Origin: Bacteroidales bacterium
GTDB lineage: Bacteria; Bacteroidota; Bacteroidia; Bacteroidales; UBA932
Direction: 5' to 3'
Assembly (NCBI GenBank): GCA_028708215.1
Contig: JAQVZL010000006.1
Location: 1-44,701 of the forward strand
DNA: 44,701 nucleotides
Shown: piece by piece, positions 15,977-44,701 of the stretch
Position numbering within the stretch: position 1 is the stretch's first letter
Layout: each line of letters opens with the position of its first letter
Notes under the pieces: model-generated
Database searches by the model: none
Seen by the model: the letters and a program-made list of their open reading frames with translations, nothing else
What the model was told of the DNA's origin: nothing
Made by a program: the position numbers and the translations under genes

Positions 15977-16708
15977 ATGAAAAAAACTAAACAATACCTA
16001 CTAACTGTACTTACAACACTAACCCTATCTGCACTGCTTTTAACTGGGTGTAAAGAGAGAGTCATAAAAGAGAAAGACCCTAATCCCTATAATTTAGAAA
16101 TTGTAGCAACAGCAAATGAATACTACAAAGCAGTAGAGGCAGATAGTAGCAACCTACTTGTAAACCTAGAAACCTACATACCAAATGTTGTTCTTGACAT
16201 AAGATATGCAACAGAGAACAATTTTACCCAAACAGCCATCTATACTTCACCAAAAGCGTGGCTAAGAAAAGAGGCTGCAGACTCTCTACTCAAAATACAA
16301 CAAATATTAAATGCCGAGGGCTTAGGAATTAAAGTATTTGACGCCTATAGGCCATATGCAGCAACTCTATATTTCTACGAAGTATATGAAGATACAACAT
16401 TTGTAGCATCGCCAAGAAGCGGCTCAATTCACAACAGAGGGGGAGCAATAGACCTCACAATTATAGATCTAGAAACAGGCGAAGAACTAGAAATGCCCAC
16501 TCCTTTTGATGAGTTCTCTGAAAGAGCATCTCACAGCTACACAGATTTGCCTTCAAATGTAATTGCTAATAGAGAAAAATTATGCAAAATAATGACAGAT
16601 AATGGGTTCACTAAATACGAACATGAGTGGTGGCACTACAACATTAAAGGGCGCAACAAATATACATTAATGGATATCTCTTTTGAAGATTTAGAAAATT
16701 TAAAGTAG
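15977..16708 (+). CDS. VanX/DdpX-family D-alanyl-D-alanine dipeptidase, predicted lipoprotein
   Basis: 243 aa; lipobox LLTGC; SIHNRGGAIDLTI and EHEWWHYNI zinc/active-site motifs. Confidence 0.9.
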   Translation: MKKTKQYLLTVLTTLTLSALLLTGCKERVIKEKDPNPYNLEIVATANEYYKAVEADSSNLLVNLETYIPNVVLDIRYATENNFTQTAIYTSPKAWLRKEAADSLLKIQQILNAEGLGIKVFDAYRPYAATLYFYEVYEDTTFVASPRSGSIHNRGGAIDLTIIDLETGEELEMPTPFDEFSERASHSYTDLPSNVIANREKLCKIMTDNGFTKYEHEWWHYNIKGRNKYTLMDISFEDLENLK

Positions 16709-16754
16709 CATTAAACAAAAAATTCTATAAAACTTTTTAATGAGAAATATAGTT

Positions 16755-16771
16755 TTGGCACAGCTTTTGTA
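16755..16771 (+). promoter_or_regulatory. Candidate sigma-54 (-24/-12) promoter
   Basis: TTGGCACAGCTTTTGTA against consensus YTGGCACGrNNNTTGCW; GG and GT separated by exactly 10 nt; lies in an intergenic region. Confidence 0.55.
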
Positions 16772-16781
16772 ATTTATTGAG

Positions 16782-16862
16782 GTGAGAAGTTTTTCATAGT
16801 TTAAGTTTTAGGTTAAGTAAGAAGATTGGCATCGTCTAAAAAGACGTTGCCTCTCTTTTTTT
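16782..16862 (+). ncRNA. Candidate small RNA (about 80 nt) transcribed from the sigma-54-like promoter
   Basis: Predicted +1 is 12 nt after the -12 element; ends in a strong hairpin plus T-run; no convincing ORF in the interval. Confidence 0.4.
16828..16862 (+). terminator. Intrinsic terminator (of the candidate sRNA and/or the upstream ddpX-like gene)
   Basis: GGCATCGTCT-AAAA-AGACGTTGCC (9 of 10 paired) followed by TCTCTTTTTTT. Confidence 0.85.
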
Positions 16863-16885
16863 AAACTATTTATCTCTTTAAATCT

Positions 16886-16915
16886 TTTGATATTATATAA
16901 AAAGTAGTATATTTG
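16886..16915 (+). promoter_or_regulatory. Bacteroidota primary-sigma promoter for rpsP-rimM
   Basis: TTTG (16886-16889), N18, TATATTTG (16908-16915). Confidence 0.7.
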
Positions 16916-16977: not shown

Positions 16978-17592
16978 ATGGCTGTTAAAATTCGTCTGTC
17001 AAGACAAGGTAAAAAGAATTACGCATTTTATCACATAGTTATAGCAGACAGCCGCGCACCAAGAGATGGTCGCTTAATTGAACGCATTGGCGTTTACAAC
17101 CCAAACATTAACCCTGCAGTAATAGAGTTAGATAACGACAAAGCCCTCGATTGGCTTTATAAGGGTGCACAACCAACAGAAACTTGCAGAAGAATTCTCT
17201 CTTTTAAAGGAGTCCTTTTAAGAAAACACCTACAAGAAGGTGTGAAAAAAGGGGCAATAACTCAAGAAGTAGCAGACCAGAAATGGAACGCTTGGGTAGA
17301 AGAGAAAGAGTTGAAACTTAGCAGTAAAAAATCTGAGCTTGAACAGAGCAAACGTGAAGCAAAAAAATCTGCTCTTGAAGAAGAGGCTAAGGTAAATCAA
17401 GCTAGACAAGAAGAGATTGCTAAGAATAAAAGAGAAGAAGAAGAGGCCATAGCAAAAGCTGCTGCTGCAAAAGCTGCAGAAGAAGAGGCTGCTGCTGCAG
17501 AGATTGCTGCAACAAAAGAGGCTATCTTAGCAGAGAAAGCAGAGGGAGAAGCTCCTGCTACAGAATCGGCTGAAACTAAAGATAAAGAGTAA
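16978..17592 (+). CDS. rpsP: 30S ribosomal protein S16 with a long Ala/Glu/Lys-rich C-terminal extension
   Basis: [43 protein letters not shown]; about 100 aa charged tail after the S16 domain. Confidence 0.96.
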
Positions 17593-35109: not shown

Positions 35110-36513
35110 CTAAAGCTCCTTTCTTAGACGTGCAATTGGCACATTCAACTGCTCTCTATATTTAGCAACAGTTCTTCTTGCAACTCTATATCCTTTCTCA
35201 TTTAAAACAGACACTAATTCTTCATCTGTAAGAGGTTTTCTTTTATCCTCTACATCTACACTCTCTAATAAGATATTTTTAATTTCTCTAGTAGAAACCT
35301 CCTCACCAGAGTCTGTCATTAACCCTTCAGAGAAAAAGTACTTTAAAGGATAAACTCCAAAATGAGTTTGAATGTACTTGCAATTTACAACCCTAGAAAT
35401 AGTTGAAATATCTAAATTTGTCATTTCTGCTATATTCTTTAATACCATAGGCTTAAGCTTACTCTCGTCGCCTTCAATGAAAAACTCACTTTGAAATTCC
35501 AAAATAGCATTCATAGTGTTATTAAGAGTATTATGGCGCTGCCTAATTGCCTCTACAAACCACTTTGCCGAATCTAACTTCTGCTTAACGAAAGTTGCAG
35601 CCTCCTTTCCAGACTTATCGTTATTGGCAGATTTCATTAAAATATCGGCATATCTTCTATTAATCCTTAACTCAGGAACAGAAAATCTTGGCATAGTCAT
35701 AACTAATTCCCCATCTTTATAGTCCAATAAGAAATCTGGAACAATCTGCTGCGCTTGCTCTGTATAGGAATCGTCTATCTGACCACCAGGGCGAGGGTTC
35801 AATCTAACAATCTCTTCTATAGCATCTCTTAACTGATCTTCAGATAAAGAGAGCTTGGTCATTATCTTTTCATAATGCTTTTTAGTGAACTCAGCAAAAT
35901 GACTCTGTAAAATTGTTTTTGCTAGCTCAACAGATGGAGAGCTTTCTTTTAGTTTAATCTGTATTAGCAGACACTCCTTAAGATTCCTTGCACCTATACC
36001 AGCAGGTTCAAACTCCTGAATTTTCATAAGAATAGCCTCTAGCTCCTTTTCGTTAGTATCAATGCCTTGCCTAAAGGCAATATCATCTACCAACGATTCT
36101 AAGTCTCTTCTAAGATAACCATCGTCGTCTAAACTGCCAATTAGAAAACCAGCAATAGATTTTGAACGACTATCCATCTGGCTATAGCCTAGTTGAGTTT
36201 CTAAACTTTGGTAGAAACTCTCCTTTACAGAAAACACATTATACTGAGGCTTTAAATCTTTCCCTTGATTATTAACATAGAGCTTATAAGAGGGTATCTG
36301 ATCTTCTGAACTATAGTCACTTAAAGAGACATCCCCTGTGGTTTCGTCTTGCTCTTCTCCATCTGTAGCTTCATCAAGTACTGGGTTCTCTTCCAGCTCT
36401 TTCTTGATTCGCTGTTCTAACTCCATAGTAGGGAGCTCCAATAACTTGATAGTCTGTATCTGAAGAGGAGATAGTTTCTGCTGTAATTTTTGTTGTAATC
36501 CCTGTTTTAACAT
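35110..36513 (-). CDS. rpoN: RNA polymerase sigma-54 factor
   Basis: 467 aa; N-terminal LKQGLQQKLQQKLSPLQIQTIKLLELPTMELEQRIKKELEENP, C-terminal RPN box-like RRTVAKYREQLNVPIARLRKEL. Confidence 0.96.
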   Translation of the reverse strand: MLKQGLQQKLQQKLSPLQIQTIKLLELPTMELEQRIKKELEENPVLDEATDGEEQDETTGDVSLSDYSSEDQIPSYKLYVNNQGKDLKPQYNVFSVKESFYQSLETQLGYSQMDSRSKSIAGFLIGSLDDDGYLRRDLESLVDDIAFRQGIDTNEKELEAILMKIQEFEPAGIGARNLKECLLIQIKLKESSPSVELAKTILQSHFAEFTKKHYEKIMTKLSLSEDQLRDAIEEIVRLNPRPGGQIDDSYTEQAQQIVPDFLLDYKDGELVMTMPRFSVPELRINRRYADILMKSANNDKSGKEAATFVKQKLDSAKWFVEAIRQRHNTLNNTMNAILEFQSEFFIEGDESKLKPMVLKNIAEMTNLDISTISRVVNCKYIQTHFGVYPLKYFFSEGLMTDSGEEVSTREIKNILLESVDVEDKRKPLTDEELVSVLNEKGYRVARRTVAKYREQLNVPIARLRKEL

Positions 36514-42445: not shown

Positions 42446-44428
42446 CTAAAAAAAATATCTCAATGCCACTTGCCAGTTCCTACCAGGCATAGCATAGAAT
42501 TTTATATTCTCATAATGTTCATTAGTAATGTTTTTAAGTGCAATATTTAACGAATATCTATTACCTCCCAACACTCCCTTCAAAGCAACTCCAACATCTA
42601 CCAAAAAATAGGGTTTTAAAATATCATATATATCTAAAGTTGTTCTCTCTCCCGTATATGAAAGATTTATAAAACCAGTTATAGCATCTTTACTAGCAGT
42701 GAAAGAGCTTCTTAAAGAGTGCTTTGGTTGAAAAGCAAGTTGCTCATCAATAGAGGGATCTTCACTCCAGAGCCCTCTTATCATTCTAACATTTGTATAA
42801 CTATAATTTAGAGAAGCACCTAGCTTCCATTCTACAAACTCTTTTTTATAATTAACCCCCAACTCTGCACCTTGTGAAAGCACCTCTGGTATATTCTGAG
42901 GACGCCATACCTGTCCAGCAGGAAGCCATCTAATCCAGTTGTTCACCTCACTCCTATAAAAAGTTAGATATCCAGTAAAGGAGCTACTTTGCCCAATATG
43001 ATTGTTCATTCCAAACCAGCTATAGTTAACTCCCGCCTCGGCAGTAAAAGATTTTTCACTTTTAAGATAGGTGTGTGTTCCCCCCCAATATCGGTCGTTT
43101 AAAGAGGGAACTTTGCTATTTCTAGATAACGAAGCTTTTAATGAGAGTGAGTGCCCCTGATTGCGAATTGGTGTAAATTTTATATCTAACGAGGGCATAA
43201 AAGGGACCTCGCTATTAGTCACCCACCCTGCTCTTGCTCCAGCAGAGACAACTAAATTAGAGATAAAGTAGGGATTATACCTAGCTAAGAAAAAGAGATA
43301 CCCCCTGTTCTCTTGAACAGAATGGGCAAAAGATTTTGCAGAGGGAGCAATATATTCATACGAGCCCCCTCCTTTTAAGATAAATTGAGTGGAAGTCAAC
43401 TGAGCCTCAGCACTCCCCAACACCTTAGAGGCCTCTATTACATCTTCTTTATATCTCTCATAGTCATTTGCAAAAGAGGCCCTTGCGCTATAAGATAACA
43501 GCGAACTACTCCCACTATAACTTAAAGAAGCTCTTAAGTTTCTATCTAAAATAGATGCAAATGTCTCTGGCCTATCATTCAAAGAGACAGAGGGTTGAAT
43601 CTCTCTATCAAAAGAGAGGTACCATAAATTAAATACCAGCAGAGACGAATCTTTGAACTTTCTATATAACTCCTGTAACACTCCTCCATTTAAATATCCA
43701 CTATTATTAAGGTATTCTTTAGGAAGCCCAGGCTTAGTATTATTTAGAAAAGAGTAATTATTTTTGGCCGATGTGTAAAATAGACTAGTTCTAGATTCAG
43801 TAGTATTGTTTGAGTACCTGAGCGTAGCCCCAGTGTAGAGAGTAGAGTAACTTCCTAGACTCACAAGAACATCTCCGCTATATCCTTTTTCCCACGTAGG
43901 AGCAGTTTTCAACTGAAGGCTCCCACCAATAGATCCGTCGCCGTATAGAGCAGAACTTCCACCTATATGAATATCTAATTTATCAAAAAAATAGATAGGT
44001 ACATGAGATAAATTTGTTTGCCCCAAGGTAGGCACAGAGAGGCTCATTCCATTCCAAGCCACCGTTGTATGCGAAGAAGATGTTCCCCTAACAGAGAGAT
44101 ATGAACCCGCACCTCTACCATACTCTTTAATATAAATTGCACTTTGCTCTTTAATAAAATCTGCCAAAGAGTTAGTTTTCATCTGTGAAAGAATCTCTTG
44201 AGAAGCACGTATTATATTTGAACCAACAGCAAAAGAGCTATTAGGTACAATAGAACGTCTTATACCACTGTTAATTATAACTGAGTCTAAATTATATGTT
44301 TTTACACTATCTATAATTGGAGCTTTCTCATCTTTAAAAATAAAAAGAGATTGCGCCGAAGCTGGAGCTCCTGCTAGAATTGCAATAGATGCAAAATAAA
44401 AAACAATAAAAGATATACCTCTGTACAT
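42446..44428 (-). CDS. TonB-dependent receptor, BtuB-like (cobalamin uptake)
   Basis: 660 aa; plug domain (SLADFIKEQSAIYIKEYGRGAGSYLSVRGTSSSHTTVAWNGMSLSVPTLGQTNLSHVPIYFFDKLDIHIGGSSALYGDGSIGGSLQL), C-terminal WQVALRYFF; downstream of a cobalamin riboswitch. Confidence 0.88.
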   Translation of the reverse strand: MYRGISFIVFYFASIAILAGAPASAQSLFIFKDEKAPIIDSVKTYNLDSVIINSGIRRSIVPNSSFAVGSNIIRASQEILSQMKTNSLADFIKEQSAIYIKEYGRGAGSYLSVRGTSSSHTTVAWNGMSLSVPTLGQTNLSHVPIYFFDKLDIHIGGSSALYGDGSIGGSLQLKTAPTWEKGYSGDVLVSLGSYSTLYTGATLRYSNNTTESRTSLFYTSAKNNYSFLNNTKPGLPKEYLNNSGYLNGGVLQELYRKFKDSSLLVFNLWYLSFDREIQPSVSLNDRPETFASILDRNLRASLSYSGSSSLLSYSARASFANDYERYKEDVIEASKVLGSAEAQLTSTQFILKGGGSYEYIAPSAKSFAHSVQENRGYLFFLARYNPYFISNLVVSAGARAGWVTNSEVPFMPSLDIKFTPIRNQGHSLSLKASLSRNSKVPSLNDRYWGGTHTYLKSEKSFTAEAGVNYSWFGMNNHIGQSSSFTGYLTFYRSEVNNWIRWLPAGQVWRPQNIPEVLSQGAELGVNYKKEFVEWKLGASLNYSYTNVRMIRGLWSEDPSIDEQLAFQPKHSLRSSFTASKDAITGFINLSYTGERTTLDIYDILKPYFLVDVGVALKGVLGGNRYSLNIALKNITNEHYENIKFYAMPGRNWQVALRYFF

Positions 44429-44474
44429 CGCTCCCTATCTCCCGAAAGTTCGATTAAAATGTTAAGCTCTCAAT

Positions 44475-44602
44475 AGGTTTTCTGACTCAGCTTTTAGATT
44501 CGCACCTTCCCGCCGTTTTTGGCAGTGGTTGGGAAGCGAAAAACCCATTCGGGTAAGCATTACAGCAGCGGGTACTGTTTCCGATTCTCACGAAATTCCC
44601 TT
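44475..44602 (-). promoter_or_regulatory. Cobalamin (B12) riboswitch
   Basis: Minus strand AAGGGAATTTCGTGAGAATCGGAAACAGTACCCGCTGCTGTAATG...CCACTGCC...GGCGGGAAGGTGCGAATC...GAGTCAGAAAACCT matches the cobalamin riboswitch order, including the B12-box-like CCACTG. Confidence 0.93.
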
Positions 44603-44701
44603 ATTAGATTGCAATGCAAAGGTAATTAATTAATTTAATTTTGCCACCTTTCCAAAATTAACTACTTTTGCACACCAAAGTTTATCAAAGCAAAAACTGC
44701 C

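Follow-up and report, generated by a model that had tools for sequence, protein, structure and literature searches.

Organization of the ddpX-rpsP intergenic region

The window, that is, the whole stretch of 44,701 nucleotides analysed here, carries a gene for a ddpX-like D-Ala-D-Ala dipeptidase followed by rpsP, which encodes ribosomal protein S16. The interval between the two genes accommodates a putative sigma-54-dependent promoter, a short predicted sRNA ending in an intrinsic terminator, and a second promoter for rpsP (Table 1). Within the -24/-12 element, the GG (16757-16758) and the GT (16769-16770) are read as being separated by N10, and placing the transcription start 12 nt past the C/T position of the -12 box gives G16782. 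The terminator hairpin, GGCATCGTCT-AAAA-AGACGTTGCC, has a GC-rich stem of 10 bp. The rpsP promoter is made up of TTTG (16886-16889) and, after N18, TATATTTG (16908-16915), and fits the -33/-7 motif known from B. thetaiotaomicron (PMC7366714).

This layout had been anticipated in the original prediction, which named a -24/-12 match with GG-N10-G(C/T) spacing, a hairpin plus T-run about 80 nt after the promoter, a separate TTTG-N18-TATATTTG promoter for rpsP, and rpoN within the same window; all of these are present at or close to the positions given there, and all three sigma-54 domains were found in the rpoN product. The interval is devoid of a convincing ORF, as had also been described, and its core is rich in stop codons. 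For the same reason, a peptide encoded by the sRNA or by the reverse strand was rejected; reverse-strand ATG frames in the genome's own copies comprise 5-7 codons. At the far end of the window, a cobalamin riboswitch (RF00174, 69 bits, 44455-44641, minus strand) lies immediately 5' of a TonB-plug receptor gene (42446-44428, minus strand).

Table 1. Predicted features of the ddpX-rpsP region, together with rpoN, in window coordinates.
Feature	Position	Strand	Remark
D-Ala-D-Ala dipeptidase gene, ddpX-like (Peptidase_M15, PF01427)	15977-16708	+	upstream neighbour
Putative sigma-54 -24/-12 promoter element TTGGCACAGCTTTTGTA	16755-16771	+	
Predicted sRNA, ~81 nt	16782-16862	+	predicted +1 at G16782, 3' end within the T-run
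Conserved single-stranded core/seed GAAGTTTTTCATAGTTTAAGTTTTAGGTTAAG with anti-start-codon CAUAG	16786-16817	+	
Intrinsic terminator	16828-16862	+	hairpin 16828-16851, T-run 16856-16862
rpsP housekeeping promoter (sigma-ABfr-type), TTTG-N18-TATATTTG	16886-16915	+	
rpsP, ribosomal protein S16	16978-17592	+	conserved downstream neighbour
rpoN, sigma-54	35110-36513	-	AID, core-binding and DNA-binding domains

Conservation of the promoter and copies of the sRNA gene

Within the 44.7-kb window alone, single -24/-12 matches with one mismatch are unremarkable. Across the organism's own genome, the strict motif TGGCAYN5TTGYW occurs 14 times, as opposed to 2 matches for the reversed control. When 61 relatives were searched at the DNA level, the segment from the -24 element through the core (16754-16820 in the window) proved conserved, with copies in about 40 of them, and the element is retained in relatives with the same gene order. 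TGGCA and TTG are invariant and at fixed spacing in 42 of 42 distinct copies, while the spacer drifts and the sixth base is either C or T, a combination that marks a -24/-12 promoter. Of 200 genomes in the window's family, 121, representing 15 of 26 genera, match a strict joint pattern of -24/-12, spacer and TTTTTCATAG, and the reversed pattern that served as control has no match, a result well outside chance; genomes usually hold 1-5 such copies, the maximum of 5 being found in genus g7. Candidate copies of the sigma-54 type were also detected in families f111, f18 and f29 (L226, L227, L218, L215). Further pattern matches at the order level (G370, G339, G148, G166, G143) have no matching core after TTTTTCATAG and were discarded as chance hits.

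Two types of copies can be distinguished by their surroundings. Type A copies precede rpsP, with 152-198 nt between core and rpsP (20 loci), and at the loci checked, type B copies follow pcrA/uvrD. The organism's own genome harbors three copies, namely the one in the window and two near-identical type B copies arranged in tandem on contig C67, 181 bp apart (L038, G000:C67, 3260-3322 and 3441-3503); the pair is evidently a recent duplication that includes promoter and hairpin.

The synteny of type A with rpsP would also fit a cis-acting leader or attenuator of this gene, and the RNA could in principle be a product of the ddpX 3'-UTR. That the RNA acts in one of these ways instead of in trans is very improbable, and both readings are already largely refuted. 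The sRNA has its own terminator and rpsP a separate promoter, while the same core, promoter and co-varying hairpin recur downstream of pcrA/uvrD, in tandem in the organism's own genome. Moreover, some relatives have a gene other than ddpX next to the RNA on the upstream side.

A different objection concerns the promoter itself. In many type A relatives it overlaps the 3' end of the upstream coding gene, so that coding constraint may add to the conservation there. A conserved ATGAAAAC box upstream of the -24 element in type A relatives likewise turned out to be the 3' end of the upstream coding gene and was dropped as a candidate element. At four loci (L002, L006, L014, L016) the overlap involves the C-terminal codons (..FENIFIYENKTLAHDL..) of the upstream gene, which is not adjacent in the window. 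The -24/-12 element might thus owe its conservation to a coding sequence (..TLAHDL..) in the upstream gene, with the RNA being made from another promoter. This is extremely improbable, since the window copy of the element lies between genes, and type B copies, in which the upstream pcrA frame stops before the -24 box, retain it; the genome-wide enrichment of the strict motif speaks against it as well.

Promoter, core and terminator, their conservation and the presence of several copies can be read from the sequences themselves, and at this level a conserved, multi-copy sRNA gene with a sigma-54 promoter is confirmed as real. Comparative evidence strongly supports the original view, in which RpoN controls a short regulatory RNA that has a terminator of its own and is followed by an independent rpsP promoter.

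Structure of the predicted RNA

The core (16786-16817) shows 97% identity across genera. In an alignment of 27 copies, it forms a single-stranded 5' seed that is followed by one terminator hairpin, and the 81-nt RNA folds better than shuffled sequences (z = -3.3). In type A terminators, 98.9% of cells are paired and 4 pairs have changed on both sides, with a covariation score of 0.437 compared to 0.262+-0.029 in shuffles (0/500). In type B stems, pairing reaches 97.9%, and 7 pairs have changed on both sides. After the type B hairpin comes a conserved UGAAAUUUUA-like tail in place of a plain T-run (e.g. L041, L045, L046), and this tail is possibly a second element or an unusual terminator.

Resemblance to FopS and GibS

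An Rfam scan, which had been proposed along with the original prediction, was run at relaxed threshold and aligned 16782-16865 to the whole FopS model (RF04319, 1-71) with 38.2 bits and an E value of 2e-4, i.e. over the full length and below the gathering score of 56 bits. The match to GibS (RF04182) is weaker, with 28.4 bits against a gathering score of 115. In B. thetaiotaomicron, FopS comprises 14 sRNAs. Through a 5' seed, they pair with susC mRNAs, which code for nutrient transporters, at the start-codon region and block translation, an action that is countered by the RRM protein RbpB (PMC11697453). Similar to FopS, GibS pairs with start-codon regions and represses (PMC7366714).

The window sRNA resembles FopS in several respects. 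Both are multi-copy RNAs, with three paralogues in the organism's own genome (G000), both measure about 70-80 nt, and both begin with an unstructured 5' seed of the R1/R1' kind, UUUUUCAU.GU..AGGUUAA, before a single terminator hairpin. An RRM protein is encoded in either case, the organism's own genome holding one of 85 aa that is RbpB-like. The differences are equally distinct. The core reads CAUAGUUUAAGUUUUAGGUUAAG in the window sRNA and CAUGGUAUUAGAUUUAAGGUUAA in FopS, copy numbers are usually 1-5 per genome compared to 12-15 for FopS, and pairing with start-codon regions is demonstrated for FopS, whereas it is predicted for the window sRNA. Above all, a sigma-54 -24/-12 element takes the place of the canonical sigma-ABfr promoter TAnnTTTG. 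In 27 FopS loci from several Bacteroidales families, TAnnTTTG invariably stands exactly 15 bases before TTTTTCAT, while in the window's family the T of the -24 box sits 29-36 bases before TTTTTCAT. Almost all Bacteroidales genomes (380 of 394) contain rpoN, so that the sigma-54 wiring characterizes the sRNA gene and not the possession of this sigma factor. The FopS model passes its cut-off in 75 of 394 Bacteroidales genomes; six genomes of the window's family were sampled, and none of them reaches it.

With GibS, the window sRNA shares the 5' GUUUUUCAUAGU seed and, presumably, start-codon pairing. GibS is longer (145 nt compared to ~81 nt), carries an R2 seed and extra hairpins, and is transcribed from the non-canonical PM2 promoter (-10/-30) instead of a -24/-12 promoter; the GibS combination of R1 and R2 seeds, a length of ~145 nt and PM2 was not found in the window sRNA.

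It could be argued that the RNA is a sigma-54-dependent sRNA unrelated to FopS and GibS, and that the shared TTTTTCAUAG core arose convergently from start-codon blocking in the A-rich leaders of Bacteroidota. The sub-threshold Rfam score is in line with such convergence, as are the facts that the window copy is the only one in its own genome to pass an E value of 1e-3 for FopS, that the promoter class is entirely different, and that the sequence after the core varies among sigma-54 copies of other families. Nevertheless, we regard convergence as unlikely, given that the similarity extends over the 5' core (UUUUUCAU.GU.., ..AGGUUAA), the linker and the terminator layout, and that intermediate forms (43 bits) exist in a genome of another family (G050), whose seed-bearing copies have no clear -24/-12 element. 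In the same genome, a Flavo-1 RNA (RF01705, 62 bits, L057 1523-1610) is located close to two tandem FopS-like copies. The window sRNA is probably best described as a divergent relative of FopS that would work like FopS, yet stands outside the family as Rfam defines it.

Predicted start-codon pairing and targets

The core carries CAUAG, the complement of CUAUG, together with U-rich flanks. Among 340 genes of the organism's own genome, taken from sampled stretches and the window, seed duplexes of -18 kcal/mol or below are predicted for 3.2% of start regions, compared to 0.5+-0.4% for shuffled seeds (0/40). No such excess was seen in upstream, coding or antisense stretches. The preference vanishes with a masked ATG and becomes marginal (3/40) if CAUAG is kept constant. 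On these grounds, the idea of a seed adapted to start sites over and above the anti-start codon was rejected; the general start-site preference is due to CAUAG itself.

One start site goes further. The best-supported predicted target is an SNF-family Na+/amino-acid symporter, whose start site in the organism's own genome offers 17 contiguous pairs (-25.8 kcal/mol), better than all 340 genes. In 13 of 19 orthologues from the genus, the predicted duplexes are of a strength reached by only ~1.5% or fewer of the sampled start regions, the background being genes of the organism's own genome and the orthologues not being independent of each other. The distance between the AACTTAAAC motif and the ATG varies among these orthologues. 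No SNF symporter was found in G002, in which the start site of a Na+/alanine symporter matches more than 20 bases of the seed with nearly full complementarity. Matches are likewise predicted at the start sites of SusC-like and lipoprotein genes. A formate/nitrite transporter (L070), second among the predicted targets in the organism's own genome, was discarded as a conserved target because its match is private to this genome, and over-representation of the target pattern in relatives was dropped, as counts there were no higher than for the reversed control. Two further start sites were noted in three species each: that of a conserved protein without Pfam match (MGIRKKISLGFVVIGAILFLSS..; L115, L117, L118), where AAAACTTAAACTATGGG matches the seed, and that of a conserved small membrane protein (..RYTLGVLLTFGALNAFGGGYYGMSG..; L134, L135, L144), which fits with one mismatch.

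From these features, a mode of action can be proposed. Sigma-54 RNA polymerase would transcribe the sRNA from the -24/-12 promoter and its own terminator would end the transcript. Because sigma-54 needs an activator, the sRNA would be made only on signal. The unstructured 5' core, i.e. CAUAG and its flanks, would then pair with start-codon regions and thereby block translation initiation of selected mRNAs, possibly with involvement of the RRM (RbpB-like) protein. Overall, we consider it likely that the interval encodes a sigma-54-dependent, FopS/GibS-like, trans-acting sRNA that blocks start codons.

Candidate activators and possible signal

Among the hallmarks of a sigma-54 transcription unit, the predicted sRNA gene has GG-N10-GT at the correct spacing to the predicted 5' end, and rpoN as well as PF00158 activators are present in the genome. 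Four strong PF00158 activators are encoded, and one or more of them may control the sRNA. One of their genes adjoins lptE, and another is divergently oriented to a gene for outer-membrane efflux that carries a -24/-12 element itself. The genome's activators include one NtrX-like protein. A conserved activator (enhancer) site was not seen between -150 and -24 across relatives, and the weak inverted repeat CATTAAA...TTTAATG (16709-16742), originally put forward as a possible activator site, is not conserved in them.

A link to cell envelope or nitrogen status, as first suggested, is plausible. Strict -24/-12 elements are located 43 bp before a gene for an HtrA-like protease (L156, G000:C34:25154) and 48 bp before an outer-membrane efflux gene (L157, G000:C36:7936), and in Flavobacterium psychrophilum, the sigma-54 regulon as mapped by experiment serves protein quality control and the response to envelope stress (PMC9723704). 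Based on these promoters and this regulon, envelope stress is the first guess for the signal and amino-acid or nitrogen supply the second. Control by nitrogen or amino acids through an NtrC-like signal, in place of envelope stress, is conceivable though doubtful. The best predicted targets are amino-acid symporters (SNF in the organism's own genome, Na+/alanine in G002), and the NtrX-like activator would suit such a role; against this stand the positions of the other strict intergenic sigma-54 promoters, before HtrA and efflux genes, the additional matches at SusC-like and lipoprotein start sites, and the Flavobacterium regulon.

Parallels in Proteobacteria and implications

Qrr and CrcZ are sigma-54-dependent sRNAs of Proteobacteria. 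The same applies to GlmY/GlmZ (PMC3162934). The window sRNA shares with all of them an expression that would be gated by RpoN plus an activator; it differs in its phylum, has no known relation to them in sequence or targets, and has an anti-start-codon seed of its own. In enterobacteria, MicA and RybB depend on sigmaE, so that an envelope-linked sigma factor makes sRNAs that switch off translation initiation of membrane proteins. What the window sRNA has in common with these is the proposed logic, as an analogy, while sigma factor and seed differ, and MicA/RybB use Hfq, compared to the RRM protein as presumed chaperone of the window sRNA.

Previous work placed FopS in the Bacteroidaceae, under control of the housekeeping sigma factor, and no earlier report of a sigma-54-driven FopS-like sRNA was found in the literature searched. 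Sigma-54-driven counterparts in a second family of Bacteroidales (121 of 200 genomes) would mean that the same regulatory idea is connected to different inputs in different lineages. As a tentative proposal, anti-start-codon sRNAs of Bacteroidales may thus operate under two sigma factors: the housekeeping factor for FopS in Bacteroides-like organisms and sigma-54 in the Rikenellaceae-type family of the window, with candidates in at least three further families (f111, f18 and f29). The sigma-54-driven copies could serve as the RNA branch of a sigma-54 regulon for envelope stress, in functional parallel to sigmaE and MicA/RybB. Sigma-54 in Bacteroidales would thereby gain a concrete output, with four candidate activators and conserved predicted targets.
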